A stretch of 26,085 nucleotides of DNA from a virus. The translations under genes and the position numbers were made by a program. The notes under the pieces are model-generated. The model searched no databases and was not told the origin of the DNA. It worked only from the letters and a program-made list of their open reading frames with translations. Shown in pieces: positions 4,735 to 10,387 of the stretch. The DNA lies in the IMG/VR virus record IMGVR_UViG_3300031758_000497, positions 1 through 26,085 of that record. One strand, given 5' to 3'. Each line of letters begins with the position of its first letter. Position 1 is the first letter of the stretch.

Positions 4735-5150
4735 ACAAACCAATTCCCAAAGGAATATCCATCGAAGGCGACATGACAGTCATGCTCGATAGCAGATTCT
4801 TAAACGCAATCGTTCTCCAAGGCGCACTCGAAAAACGTGGCGCCGACCATCTCACAGTCGAGATCGATCGCGTCGAACATCACGACAAGCTCAAATACGA
4901 GAACGGGCAATCGAACGATGACGTTTATCTGCTCTATTTCAAGGGCAGCGACAAGCCTCTCAAACTCTCCAAAACCAACACCAAGCGCATCATTGCGCTT
5001 CATGGGGTTCAGTGGAAAAACTGGCATCAGAAGAAAATCAATCTCTGCCTGGAGATGGACAAGCGACCAGACCTCGGCGGCAAAAAAGGTCTTTGCGTTC
5101 GGATTCAAATGATAGACCCAGAAACGGGGAAAGGAGCGGTATCATGGTAA
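4731..5150 (+). CDS. Hypothetical protein in the recombination cluster
   Basis: This 139-residue protein alternates strands and helices and contains Met-Thr-Val-Met-Leu-Asp-Ser, a charged centre, and a C-terminal segment with Gly-Gly-Lys-Lys-Gly. It overlaps the RecE-like exonuclease by seven bases and carries that gene's Shine-Dalgarno in its last codons. In many phages the gene beside a RecE/lambda Exo nuclease is the single-strand annealing protein, but I see no RecT, Red-beta or ERF pattern and the protein is short, so I leave it unnamed. Confidence 0.65.
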   Translation: MNKPIPKGISIEGDMTVMLDSRFLNAIVLQGALEKRGADHLTVEIDRVEHHDKLKYENGQSNDDVYLLYFKGSDKPLKLSKTNTKRIIALHGVQWKNWHQKKINLCLEMDKRPDLGGKKGLCVRIQMIDPETGKGAVSW

Positions 5151-6010
5151 TCCCAGAAGGCATCCACCACGGACTCGGCATGGGGGCTTATCATGGATGG
5201 AAGGTCGATAAAGCCGACCTTAAATCCAGCCCGATCTCATGCTCATTCTTGAAATCGTTCGCGCCGAATCCTTACGAGTGGGCAATGTCACCACCGTTCA
5301 AGCAGACGGAAGGAATGAGAACGGGATCGCTTTTCGATCTTGCCCTAACCGACCCGAACGAGATCCAGAATCAGGTTGTCACCTCGCCATTCGATAGTTT
5401 CCGCACCAAGGAAGCTCAAGCATGGAAAGAGGAACAAATCGGAGCCGGCAAGATCATCATCTCAGGCGATGAACTCAGCCGCGCACAAAAAGCCGCGCAG
5501 GAAGTTTATCTTCACCCGGTCGCTGGCGAGATTCTGGATGGTTGCAGTTTCCAAGTTGGAATCATCGGCAAGATCGACGGCTTCCATGTGAAATGCTTAC
5601 TCGATATCTTGCCGAAAGAAAACGGCGATTGGGCGGACTGCCTTGTGGATTACAAGACAACCGCAAACGGACTCGATGACGATTCCCTAGCTCAAACCAT
5701 CGGCAAGTTTAAATACGGATGGCAGGGTGCATGGTATCTTGGGTTGGCGAATAAATTTCACCCGACCCGCAAGTTCACGAGGTTTGCTTTTATCTGGCAA
5801 TCAACCAAGACGCTGGAGGTTCGCGTGACGACTCTCAGCCTTGGATCAACTGCTCTGCTAGATGGCGACCGCTGCATTGCAAGGGCCTTGGAAGAGTTCA
5901 AGAAATGCGCCGAGTTTGGCATCGTTTCCAGATACGCAACCAAGGTCGATCAGGTCGATATCAAGCCTTACCACGCGATGAGTGAAGAAGAGATGGAGGT
6001 GGAGTCATGA
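5144..6010 (+). CDS. RecE/exonuclease VIII-like PD-(D/E)XK exonuclease
   Basis: The 288-residue product shows the RecB/RecE-type nuclease core: Gly-Ser-Leu-Phe-Asp-Leu-Ala-Leu (61-68), Gly-Lys-Ile-Asp145-Gly-Phe, Cys-Leu-Val-Asp169-Tyr-Lys171-Thr-Thr, and the Gln194-x3-Tyr198 motif in Gln-Gly-Ala-Trp-Tyr. Asp145, Asp169 and Lys171 should be metal-binding and catalytic. Such enzymes (DUF3799/RecE C-terminal) chew one strand of dsDNA 5' to 3' to make tails for recombination. The start is ATG 5144 behind AAAGGAG; longer frames upstream overlap the previous gene. It stands with a second nuclease and an SSB-like gene, making a phage recombination and repair set. Confidence 0.85.
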   Translation: MVIPEGIHHGLGMGAYHGWKVDKADLKSSPISCSFLKSFAPNPYEWAMSPPFKQTEGMRTGSLFDLALTDPNEIQNQVVTSPFDSFRTKEAQAWKEEQIGAGKIIISGDELSRAQKAAQEVYLHPVAGEILDGCSFQVGIIGKIDGFHVKCLLDILPKENGDWADCLVDYKTTANGLDDDSLAQTIGKFKYGWQGAWYLGLANKFHPTRKFTRFAFIWQSTKTLEVRVTTLSLGSTALLDGDRCIARALEEFKKCAEFGIVSRYATKVDQVDIKPYHAMSEEEMEVES

Positions 6011-8088: not shown

Positions 8089-8106
8089 ATTTTAAAAAAG
8101 AACACT

Positions 8107-8442
8107 GTGAAACCATACTTTTATATCATGAACGCAGACCAGAACATCGTCTGCAAACGAGACAATCTCGAATCGGCAAAAGTCGCGGCTGAATCCTGCG
8201 CTTTGAATTGGCCCGGCGCATCTTACGAGATCCTCAAATGCGTCGGGGTCAGCACAACAAGCCGCCCCAACACTTTTTGGATGGACGGCGAAACTGGGAC
8301 AACAGCGAAAGAATATCGGATTCTGGATGAGGACGAGATCCTTAAAGATGGCGATGAATATCACTCTTGCTTCAACGGATGGATTCCCACTGTGAGGATC
8401 GGGAGAGGCGCTTGGAAATATCAACACCGCCGCCCGATCTAA
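8107..8442 (+). CDS. Hypothetical early protein (GTG start)
   Basis: One hundred and eleven residues, read from GTG 8107, since no ATG lies closer to the N-terminus except the internal Met8. It starts Lys-Pro-Tyr-Phe-Tyr-Ile-Met, then alternating strand and helix, several cysteines, and a basic end. Codon use matches its neighbours and it fills the gap in the operon; a long opposite-strand frame over the same bases (8092-9075) has an odd composition and is rejected. No function is evident. Confidence 0.6.
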   Translation: MKPYFYIMNADQNIVCKRDNLESAKVAAESCALNWPGASYEILKCVGVSTTSRPNTFWMDGETGTTAKEYRILDEDEILKDGDEYHSCFNGWIPTVRIGRGAWKYQHRRPI

Positions 8443-8446
8443 CACC

Positions 8447-8626
8447 ATGACCATCACTACAATCATCACCCACCAGACGGAAGCACCGCCAACCGACTTT
8501 GTGGAGATCGCAAACGCAATCGCGGGCAGGCTGGAGACACCGATCGGGATCTCCAACGACTTCCTAACCCCGCTCGAAATTTCAACCTTCATCAGAGAAG
8601 AAAACGCCGCAGACGCGGACCAATAA
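8447..8626 (+). CDS. Very small acidic hypothetical protein
   Basis: A 59-residue frame from ATG 8447 (AACACC-ATG context) to TAA 8626 fills the space before the replication initiator. The N-terminus is Thr/Ile-rich, the middle resembles an amphipathic helix (Val-Glu-Ile-Ala-Asn-Ala-Ile-Ala-Gly-Arg-Leu-Glu), and the end is acidic. Good spacing on both sides and the shared start context support it. No family is recognised. Confidence 0.55.
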   Translation: MTITTIITHQTEAPPTDFVEIANAIAGRLETPIGISNDFLTPLEISTFIREENAADADQ

Positions 8627-8631
8627 ACAAT

Positions 8632-9384
8632 ATGAGAATTAGAACAATAAAGCCAGAATTTTGGATGCACGAAAAACTCGCGGAGAAGTCGGAATTCACC
8701 CGGCTCCTCGCCATCGCGATTTTGAATTGGGCAGATGACGAGGGATATTTCATGGCAAATCCAACCCTTATCAAAGGGCAACTTTTCCCATTCTTGGATG
8801 ATTCCAAGATCATTCCAAGATCCATCCAAGACTTGTCGAGCGTGGGGTGGATTGAGGTTTCTGAGGACGGGGAAGGCAGATTGATCGGTCGAGTCACTAA
8901 TTTTGCAAAACATCAAAGAGTCGACAAGCCGAAGCCTAGTATTATCAAGCCTTTGTGGGGATTCCAAGACGCATCCAAGACGCATCCAAGACGCGTCCAA
9001 GACGCATCCAAGGAGGAAGGGAAGGGAAAGGAAGGGAATAGGAATGGAAGTGGAAAGGATCATTCTTGTCCGCAAGCGGACGCTGACGACCTTATGGAAA
9101 CAATCTGGAAACTTTCCCCGCCGACAGCAAAGAGCAGATCCAGCAAGAAGCAGCTCATTGACGCGCTCAAAGCTATTCCAGCCACCTCCCGACCTTCTGT
9201 GGATGCTTTCACCGAATCACTCAGGAAATGGATTCAGACGCCTGATTGGACCAAGGACGATGGCGCGTTCATTCCTGGCATTCATCTCTGGGTGAAGAAC
9301 AGGAAATGGGAGTTTGAGCCAGCGATCAGCAAATCGACGAAAAACCGCTTTGCAGGAACCCAAGAGGAAATCGAAATACCATGA
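8632..9384 (+). CDS. Phage replication initiator, lambda O / DnaD-like
   Basis: Residues 1-95 match the N-terminal winged-helix of phage replication initiators: Met-Arg-Ile-Arg-Thr-Ile-Lys-Pro-Glu-Phe-Trp, Leu-Asn-Trp-Ala-Asp-Asp-Glu-Gly-Tyr-Phe (31-40), Gly-Gln-Leu-Phe-Pro. A low-complexity basic linker (about 110-145) follows, then a C-terminal helical domain with several Trp residues that would contact the helicase loader. The gene is immediately followed (ATGA) by the DnaC-like loader, as O is followed by P in lambda. Two sets of 11-bp repeats lie inside the gene (8804-8836 and 8964-9012), so it probably also carries the origin it binds. The start follows CCAATAAACAAT, without Shine-Dalgarno. 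Confidence 0.82.
   Translation: MRIRTIKPEFWMHEKLAEKSEFTRLLAIAILNWADDEGYFMANPTLIKGQLFPFLDDSKIIPRSIQDLSSVGWIEVSEDGEGRLIGRVTNFAKHQRVDKPKPSIIKPLWGFQDASKTHPRRVQDASKEEGKGKEGNRNGSGKDHSCPQADADDLMETIWKLSPPTAKSRSSKKQLIDALKAIPATSRPSVDAFTESLRKWIQTPDWTKDDGAFIPGIHLWVKNRKWEFEPAISKSTKNRFAGTQEEIEIP
8804..8836 (+). repeat. Three degenerate 11-bp iterons, set A, in the initiator gene
   Basis: CCAAGATCATT (8804-8814), CCAAGATCCAT (8815-8825) and CCAAGACTTGT (8826-8836) follow each other with no gap, sharing CCAAGA at exact 11-bp spacing. A CTTGGA in the opposite sense lies just upstream at about 8793. They are less regular than set B, and may be weaker binding sites for the initiator. Confidence 0.55.
8964..9012 (+). 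repeat. Four and a half 11-bp iterons, set B: candidate replication origin
   Basis: CCAAGACGCAT is repeated at 8964, 8975 and 8997, with one single-base variant (CCAAGACGCGT) at 8986, and a partial CCAAG at 9008. Eleven is not a multiple of three, so the frame rotates through the repeats and the encoded protein repeats only every 33 bp. Selection must therefore act on the DNA. Lambda carries its origin iterons inside gene O in the same way. A pure purine tract follows at once. Confidence 0.75.
9010..9038 (+). other. Pure purine tract next to the iterons
   Basis: Twenty-nine consecutive bases on the + strand are A or G, continuing to about 9059 with only a few T interruptions. It encodes the Glu/Gly/Lys linker of the initiator. 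Runs of GG and GGG could form an unusual structure (triplex or two-layer G-quadruplex) or help duplex opening at the origin. The tract itself is seen; the role is inferred. Confidence 0.5.
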
Positions 9385-10046
9385 ACATCACACTCCCAAG
9401 TTTTCTAACCGACATCGACCAGATGATTGCCAACGCTCCAGAGGGCGACGCAGAAACCCAAGAAACCAAAAAACCAAATCTTGTTCGCGAAGCAAATGGT
9501 TGGGGTTCGCGCTACGTTGCTCCGTTTTCGCCCGTTGGGGATAATTGGCTCACAATCTACCACGAGGCATCCAAAACTGTCTCACAGGGCGGTTTGGTGG
9601 CGTTTCTCGGTGGGCGCGGAACTGGCAAGACTCAGATGGCCGCAGAAATCGCCAAAACGGGCGAGTGGACGAGAGATAAAGGTGAATGGAACGGAAACTC
9701 GATGGTCGCAAACAAAACCGCAGTTTATCGCCGAGCAATGGACATTTTCTTAGACCTTCGCGACAGAAGCGCAGGACATAGCGAAAAGGCAATTTTGGAG
9801 AAGCTCACTTTTTGCGGCTTGCTCGTGATCGATGAGTTTCAAGAACGAGGAGAAACGCCTTTCGAGGACCGCATCGTCACAAACCTGCTTGATAAGCGAT
9901 ACAACGACGAGCGACCAACAATCCTGATCGCCAATCTGGATCGGGAAGGACTCAGCGGGATGCTCTCTCCTTCTGTAAAGGACAGGATGAGGGAGAACGG
10001 CAGGAGCTTTTTATTCGATTGGAAATCATACCGCACAAAACCATGA
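9381..10046 (+). CDS. DnaC-like helicase loader (AAA+ ATPase)
   Basis: The 221-residue protein has Walker A Gly-Gly-Arg-Gly-Thr-Gly-Lys-Thr (77-84), Walker B Leu-Leu-Val-Ile-Asp-Glu (147-152), a sensor-1 Asn185 in Ile-Ala-Asn, and Ser-Val-Lys-Asp-Arg-Met-Arg (198-204) with the likely arginine finger, the order seen in DnaC/IstB-type ATPases. It would load the host replicative helicase at the phage origin together with the initiator just upstream. The N-terminal 40 residues form an acidic low-complexity stretch. The gene overlaps both neighbours by four bases, starting in the ATACC-ATG context without Shine-Dalgarno. Confidence 0.88.
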   Translation: MNITLPSFLTDIDQMIANAPEGDAETQETKKPNLVREANGWGSRYVAPFSPVGDNWLTIYHEASKTVSQGGLVAFLGGRGTGKTQMAAEIAKTGEWTRDKGEWNGNSMVANKTAVYRRAMDIFLDLRDRSAGHSEKAILEKLTFCGLLVIDEFQERGETPFEDRIVTNLLDKRYNDERPTILIANLDREGLSGMLSPSVKDRMRENGRSFLFDWKSYRTKP

Positions 10047-10387
10047 ACAAAAACACAGAAGATATCAAAAAAGCAGCAGGACTCAAGAAAACCCAACTGG
10101 TCCTCATGCCACCAGCAGCAGAAGAAATGATCTGCCAGGTGCTACAATCGGGCGCCGACAAATATGGAGCTTGGAACTGGAGACTCTCAGGAGTCGAAGC
10201 GGCAACCTACATCAGCGCCATCAAGAGACACTTAGCGGCGATCCACTCAGGAGAATGGAACGACCCAGAAAGCGGCAAACCTCACATCGCCCACATCGCG
10301 GCCAGCGCATCCATCATGCTCGATGCTGAACATCACGGCAGATTGGCACTCAACGTCGTCAAACCAGAAATCAAATCCAAACCATGA
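10043..10387 (+). CDS. MazZ/DUF5664-like (d)ATP/(d)GTP pyrophosphohydrolase
   Basis: The 114-residue protein contains Lys-Tyr-Gly-Ala-Trp-Asn-Trp-Arg (40-47), Tyr-Ile-Ser-Ala-Ile-Lys-Arg-His-Leu (56-64), Gly-Glu-Trp-Asn-Asp-Pro-Glu-Ser-Gly (70-78) and His-Ile-Ala-His-Ile-Ala (81-86). The Glu, Asp and His in these match the all-alpha MazG-like family called DUF5664, related to the MazZ enzymes that cleave dATP or dGTP in phages. It lies right after the helicase loader. No PurZ gene is in the window, so there is no case for base Z here. It could instead tune nucleotide pools. Confidence 0.65.
   Translation: MNKNTEDIKKAAGLKKTQLVLMPPAAEEMICQVLQSGADKYGAWNWRLSGVEAATYISAIKRHLAAIHSGEWNDPESGKPHIAHIAASASIMLDAEHHGRLALNVVKPEIKSKP

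Follow-up and report, generated by a model that had tools for sequence, protein, structure and literature searches.

Two arrays of 7-bp dyads at 11-bp spacing inside a phage replication initiator gene, a strong candidate for a built-in replication origin

The window analyzed here is an IMG/VR virus record of 26,085 bases, and its replication initiator gene very probably carries its own origin of replication, bound by the initiator that the gene encodes. As judged from sequence comparison, this intragenic origin would work in the manner of lambda ori and of pSK41 rep, while being a member of neither family. Two sets of TCCAAGA repeats lie inside the gene, and a purine tract directly follows the second set. 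The two-set layout recurs with differing site sequences in related phages of many phyla, and it is a strong candidate for a widespread built-in origin.

Set A (8792–8831) contains four units, and set B (8963–9002) contains four units and a partial fifth (Table 1). The spacing in both sets is exactly 11 bp, and TCCAAGA is seen eight times across them without any mismatch. The preliminary description of this DNA had listed seven full CCAAGA units at 11-bp intervals, at 8804, 8815, 8826, 8964, 8975, 8986, and 8997, and a partial CCAAGG at 9008. All of these are present, but one unit of set A had been missed. The sequence CTTGGATGATT at 8793 is a TCCAAGA site on the opposite strand, and it keeps the 11-bp register of set A.

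TCCAAGA occurs 14 times in the window against 5.0 expected; none of 100 shuffles reaches 14, and 8 of the 14 copies fall within the two sets. Elsewhere in the 26 kb, there are no other runs of at least three identical 7-mers on either strand with a constant spacing of 8 to 20 bp. The 11-mer CCAAGACGCAT, considered as the whole repeat unit, shows no clear enrichment in the window. The conserved portion is the 7-mer TCCAAGA, and the recognized unit is probably a 7-bp dyad rather than CCAAGACGCAT.

Table 1. Positions of the repeat units, the adjacent tract, and the genes and codons discussed in the text.
Feature	Sequence or type	Position	Strand	Remark
Set A unit 1	TCTTGGA (inverted TCCAAGA)	8792..8798	-	Overlooked in the preliminary description
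Set A unit 2	TCCAAGA	8803..8809	+	
Set A unit 3	TCCAAGA	8814..8820	+	
Set A unit 4	TCCAAGA	8825..8831	+	
Set B unit 1	TCCAAGA	8963..8969	+	Linker codons
Set B unit 2	TCCAAGA	8974..8980	+	
Set B unit 3	TCCAAGA	8985..8991	+	
Set B unit 4	TCCAAGA	8996..9002	+	
Set B partial unit 5	TCCAAGG	9007..9013	+	
Purine tract	GGAAGGGAA type, candidate unwinding element	about 9012..9059	+	Directly after set B
Replication initiator gene	250 aa; N-terminal winged helix, disordered linker, C-terminal helical domain	8632..9384	+	PHROG matches, AlphaFold
Predicted recognition helix	Codons 60–70	8809..8841	+	Overlaps set A; AlphaFold pLDDT above 90
Residues D98 and K99	Inferred half-site specificity	8923..8928	+	Covariation with unit sequence over clusters; outside both arrays
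Helicase loader gene	DnaC-like	9381..10046	+	phrog_50 (2.7e-26), phrog_3277 (5.2e-19)

The gene was initially described as encoding an O/DnaD-like initiator, followed by a DnaC-like loader. The assignment of the two genes stands, and the kinship with lambda O does not. The initiator matches phrog_1408 (4.9e-28, residues 1–142), phrog_16167 (1.9e-26), and phrog_2149 (1e-21, residues 1–230), labelled "replication initiation protein". The start of the loader gene (phrog_50/3277) overlaps the end of the initiator gene by four bases. In Tyrion, P12026, Gsput1, and Pitbull, the initiator gene is adjoined by a gene for a P-like loader or a DnaB-like helicase.

In the AlphaFold model (pLDDT 94), the N-terminal domain is a winged helix with helices at residues 21–33, 44–51, and 60–70 and strands at 74–78 and 84–88. 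Set A corresponds to codons 54–67 and therefore covers the turn and most of the predicted recognition helix. Set B starts near codon 111, within a linker of very low AlphaFold confidence that is predicted to be disordered.

An open frame of 327 aa runs antisense through the initiator gene (8092–9075, minus strand). It was rejected as a gene and is probably accidental, since stops interrupt the frame in each of the eight relatives examined. Just past the loader, 10019–10387 (plus strand) encodes a protein with the dATP/dGTP diphosphohydrolase N-terminal domain (PF18909, 3.7e-26). Among the PHROGs, it matches 2252 best; the label of that family, "endolysin; inhibits RNA polymerase", looks misleading. 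An Exonuclease VIII-like PDDEXK protein (DUF3799, phrog_412) is encoded at 5012–6010 (plus strand), which suggests a phage recombination module upstream of the initiator gene. An integrase is found at 1349–2407.

Homologues were collected from viral and genome scans, and the resulting 260 genes fall into 102 clusters at 60% identity. The near relatives in the viral contigs L001–L008 retain both sets, and L009 is truncated ahead of set B. Inverted units (CTTGG) are seen in L002–L008 with the 11-bp register intact. Mycobacterium phage Butters has TCGCGAGA in both sets, and Propionibacterium phage PFR1 has TCTCGCGAG in both sets. Gordonia phage Gsput1 has TCACTGA units in the linker, Marinomonas phage P12026 also has TCACTGA, and Enterobacter phage Tyrion has GTAC-type units. 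Prophage hosts belong to Pseudomonadota, Actinomycetota, Verrucomicrobiota, Planctomycetota, Bacteroidota, Gemmatimonadota, and others, and arrays are present in eight phyla.

Across the family, the leading period relative to synonymous shuffles is 11 bp. When units are allowed to flip, 11-bp chains of at least four units are found in 36 of the 102 genes, compared with 3.6 after synonymous shuffling, and chains of at least three units in 60 genes, compared with 11.6. In the same clusters, chain counts at 9, 12, and 13 bp differ little from the null. After 11 bp, genuine periods are seen at 7 and 8 bp, due to the purine repeats, and a smaller excess is present at 10 bp. Over all clusters, the lag-11 match is 0.42 in the interval from −120 to −90 nt and 0.39–0.46 from +45 to +105 nt, counted from the codon of the conserved histidine 94, and only these two positions rise above the background of about 0.25. 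It had been proposed that relatives be inspected for arrays that are absent or out of register. Close relatives keep both sets, and the 11-bp signal lies at the same two gene positions over the 102 clusters. By a crude core-assignment criterion, 28 of the 102 clusters have no 11-bp array, and in some the spacing is 10 bp. One example is a homologue from a human-gut phage (MT835537.1, 1840–1916), which has CTGCGGC/TTGCCGC units at a 10-bp spacing.

Repeats inside a coding sequence could be a by-product of protein evolution without any DNA function, here of the repetitive linker QDASKTHPRRVQDASK and a conserved helix. The linker is in fact low-complexity and disordered. Against this, neither 11 bp nor the purine-repeat periods of 7 and 8 bp can be divided by three, and unit starts fall in all three codon phases across the family. 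Synonymous-codon shuffles of the initiator gene destroy the arrays: TCCAAGA appears 2.4 times on average and 7 times at maximum in 2000 shuffles, whereas 8 copies are observed, and two runs of at least three copies of one word appear in 0 of 500. Besides, the amino-acid-normalized synonymous codon conservation is 1.25–1.67 at codons 53–67 and about 0.9–1.0 on either side. With non-overlapping pairs, the ratio is 1.39 (1.29–1.51). The highest synonymous conservation of the N-domain coding region is located over set A, and this is independent evidence for a DNA-level constraint exactly on set A. The codon phases, the shuffles, and the synonymous conservation contradict protein repetition as the cause of the arrays, and a mere by-product is hardly conceivable. 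The earlier argument that a repeat of 11 bp must be selected as DNA is thus borne out.

The two sets of one gene resemble each other. On alignments, the number of 7-mers common to sets A and B averages 7.27 within a gene and 1.92 between genes. The highest value in 5000 permutations is 2.95, and values of 2.0–3.6 are obtained for control regions in these genes. Exact agreement of the A and B units by crude core assignment is seen in 20 of 39 cases (permutation mean 4.1, maximum 12), which is an undercount because some arrays are mis-registered. The unit class changed at least 14 times on a weakly resolved tree, so both sets changed together repeatedly.

It may be asked whether set B alone is the origin and set A is a functionless evolutionary echo, either a copied fragment or a convergence through similar peptides. 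Set A was detected in fewer genes than set B (37 and 55), and it is often imperfect, as in L002 with TCCACGA. An echo would not be expected to track the sequence class of set B across lineages, nor to have synonymous conservation that tops the N-domain coding region. That set A is such an echo is unlikely, and a function for both sets is preferred. A fixed helical phase between sets A and B was considered and rejected. The distance from A to B is 127–218 bp and is spread modulo 11; that it is no multiple of 11 argues against a rigid loop.

Mixed-orientation chains at lag 11 are mostly base-centered (41 vs. 10), with the symmetrized consensus TCnnnGA. Scored without prior assumption, the units are inverted trinucleotides flanking one base. 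The dyad takes the forms TCG-n-CGA, TCA-n-TGA, TAC-n-GTA, and TCY-n-RGA across lineages. These forms correspond to residues 98–99 of the initiator. The residues are DR in 18 of 19 clusters with the GAC core (TCG-n-CGA), NR in 7/7 with the ACT core (TCA-n-TGA), NK in 4/4 with the CGG core (TAC-n-GTA), and DK in 5/5 with the CAA core (TCY-n-RGA), which is the class of this window. Units with ACGCGT are accompanied by NN in 3/3, and GCG units by DK in most.

Among all N-domain columns, column 98 has the top excess information on the half-site class. Asparagine at 98 goes with TCA and aspartate with TCG in 49 of 51 clusters. In clusters outside the derivation of the rule, TCA is the best class in 11 of 13 NR clusters, and N98 and D98 differ with p = 2.5e-5 (Mann-Whitney). 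The independent contrasts for this covariation number one on strongly supported branches and nine on the best tree, which is poorly resolved. Binding of the arrays by the initiator itself is well, if not conclusively, supported by the covariation with residues 98–99.

Columns 59, 62, 63, and 66 rank next after column 98 and are not independent, because set A itself encodes them. These residues of the recognition helix (codons in 8806–8829) also track the array class. Since their codons are within set A, the site sequence and the helix possibly reading it constrain each other directly.

Arrays of direct repeats are not confined to origins. Phage parS sites are also built of them; in RedRock, parS consists of eight copies of an 8-bp motif (PMC7157519). 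A host factor might bind the arrays, or they might act in packaging or in the manner of a centromere, and the initiator would just be close by. However, the site sequence tracks two initiator residues across lineages and varies among related genes, and binding by a host factor would not account for this. This possibility is very improbable compared with binding by the initiator.

No other 48 nt of the window are as rich in purines as the tract beside set B, where 45 of 48 bases on the coding strand are purines. A purine tract was scored as at least 20 purines in 24 nt, in the segment after the conserved histidine. By this definition, it is present in 81 of 102 linker segments and in 32 of 657 segments elsewhere, and its median start is 9 nt past set B. 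The purine content is up to 0.70 at +105 to +150 from histidine codon 94. The repeats in the tract are GGAAGGGAA, GGGAACA (7 bp), or GGAACAGG (8 bp), and they occur in all three reading frames. The family mean of A+T is 0.43–0.46, so the tract is not A+T-rich. By position, it is the counterpart of the A+T-rich unwinding region of lambda, and it is a candidate unwinding element. The period is 5, 7, or 8 bp depending on the phage, and the composition (GGAA, GGGAACA, GGATCAGGG) is alike across lineages that differ in array class. It is as if a common partner read the tract.

The purine repeats bear on another interpretation, that the arrays are an operator or silencer. The initiator, or a phage repressor of the same specificity, would bind inside its own gene to block transcription or to regulate itself, and replication would start elsewhere. 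The set A codons are far from the purine tract, and a roadblock there is possible. The covariation of residues 98–99 supports binding by the initiator and by itself is no proof of origin function. On the other hand, purine repeats after set B in most clusters are expected of an origin and not of an operator. Neither the promoter side nor the remainder of the window has a further 11-bp array. Lambda ori and the pSK41 ori are located in the same part of their initiator genes (PMC5703833). An operator without origin function is therefore judged improbable, and the intragenic origin remains the preferred interpretation. Some findings speak against it. The GC-skew analysis suggested in the preliminary description shows no clear switch at the array within the window, 28 clusters have no 11-bp array by the criterion given above, and the tract differs from the unwinding region of lambda in not being A+T-rich.

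The origin could function as follows. The N-terminal winged helix of the initiator would bind the 7-bp dyad, in which a single base pair separates two trinucleotide half-sites in inverted orientation (TCC-A-AGA in this window). The repeat of 11 bp is close to one helical turn, and successive protomers or dimers would be placed on one face of the DNA. The core would comprise set B, whose units fall in codons of the disordered linker, together with the purine tract that immediately follows. The filled array of set B may strain or open the tract. The C-terminal part of the initiator, which is DnaT-like in some relatives, may then hold the single strand, and the loader encoded by the neighboring gene would deliver the helicase. 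Set A would be a second array read by the same winged-helix domain. It may serve to concentrate the initiator locally, to form a bridge with set B, or to hold initiation and gene expression in check. Bridging or handcuffing was reportedly proposed for tetrameric plasmid RepA by Schumacher et al. in 2014. RepA tetramers are mentioned in PMC5703833. For sets A and B, bridging or handcuffing is only a lead, drawn from this analogy.

Origins inside initiator genes are already known, from lambda and pSK41. Lambda ori has one set of four 18-bp iterons with a spacing of 20–24 bp, each an imperfect inverted repeat of about 19 bp, and an A+T-rich tract (PMC7466680). In both cases, the repeats are in codons of the initiator linker (iteron 1 of lambda at codon 117, set B near codon 111), an opening tract, here a candidate one, comes after them, and the helicase loader gene is next (PMC7466680). 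The differences are the 7-bp dyads every 11 bp, the two sets, and a tract that is purine-rich and not A+T-rich. That the unit length and sequence differ from those of lambda had been noted from the beginning and is correct. Lambda O matches phrog_277/2365/391, and the window initiator matches none of them; the sole family shared by the two proteins is phrog_5810 (E = 0.004 for the window). Profile comparison gives a probability of 0.8%, and homology to lambda O is rejected. The "lambda-O-like" self-contained origin of the preliminary description is thus apt for the presumed way of working, with iterons inside the linker codons of the initiator gene, and not for the kinship, the form of the iterons, or the composition of the tract.

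In pSK41 and pTZ2162, the winged-helix N-domain of Rep (RepA_N) binds Rep boxes in the middle of the gene, the origin encodes the linker, and the fold is related to DnaD (PMC5703833). The Rep boxes of pSK41 are semi-palindromes around poly-A (PMC7145576). The central position in the initiator gene is shared by set B. Comparison of the N-domain model with PDB gives weak matches (E about 0.006, TM about 0.5), and the plasmid initiator entries 4pql and 4pt7 are among the best, with Fur and MarR repressors scoring similarly. 4PT7 is named as staphylococcal RepA (PMC7145576). Unlike these proteins, the window initiator has no RepA_N match in Pfam at E up to 0.1. In the literature compared, no description was found of a second set in the DNA-binding-domain codons of pSK41-type rep.

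Phages of phrog_1408 and phrog_2149 (Tyrion, Butters, PFR1, and Marinomonas phage P12026) share the protein family, 11-bp arrays with their own unit, and the purine repeats. They differ in the half-site class and in the C-terminal domain. This domain of the Tyrion initiator is DnaT (PF17948), as in primosomal proteins of the DnaT/DnaD type, which suggests single-strand binding. The window initiator, in contrast, has no Pfam match at E up to 0.1, C-terminus included, and the profile of its group matches DnaT only weakly (E about 0.4).

With slightly more confidence than doubt, these arrays can be regarded as a class of phage origin that is widespread and has not been described before. Its dyad arrays, with a period of one turn (11 bp), would occupy two constant positions in the initiator gene, and one of these positions would coincide with the codons for the helix that reads the DNA. 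A code at residues 98–99 (DR for TCG, NR for TCA, NK for TAC, and DK for TCY) would have been switched repeatedly as arrays and protein changed together. In the literature searched, neither dyad arrays spaced at 11 bp, nor an additional array in codons of the recognition helix, nor the rule for residues 98–99 was found described; repeats in single members may have been noted earlier.

If this is true, origins and initiator sites are predicted for a large family of temperate phages from at least eight bacterial phyla, most members of which are now annotated just as "hypothetical" or "replication initiation protein". The initiator and its sites could then switch specificity jointly, even though the sites are located in its own coding sequence, recognition-helix codons included. 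The rule for residues 98–99 is directly testable with natural homologues. It should also tell which phages, or plasmids derived from phages, are able to share or interfere with one another's replication.

Homologues of the family are seen on 30 plasmid records, mostly of Klebsiella. Initiator genes of the Tyrion type with GTAC-type arrays are found in the prophage of E. coli EC2 (L264, 601–1368) and in Klebsiella (L018). In E. coli prophages, initiator genes of this type are present in 22 of 5426 genomes, and an E. coli copy would suit laboratory work.
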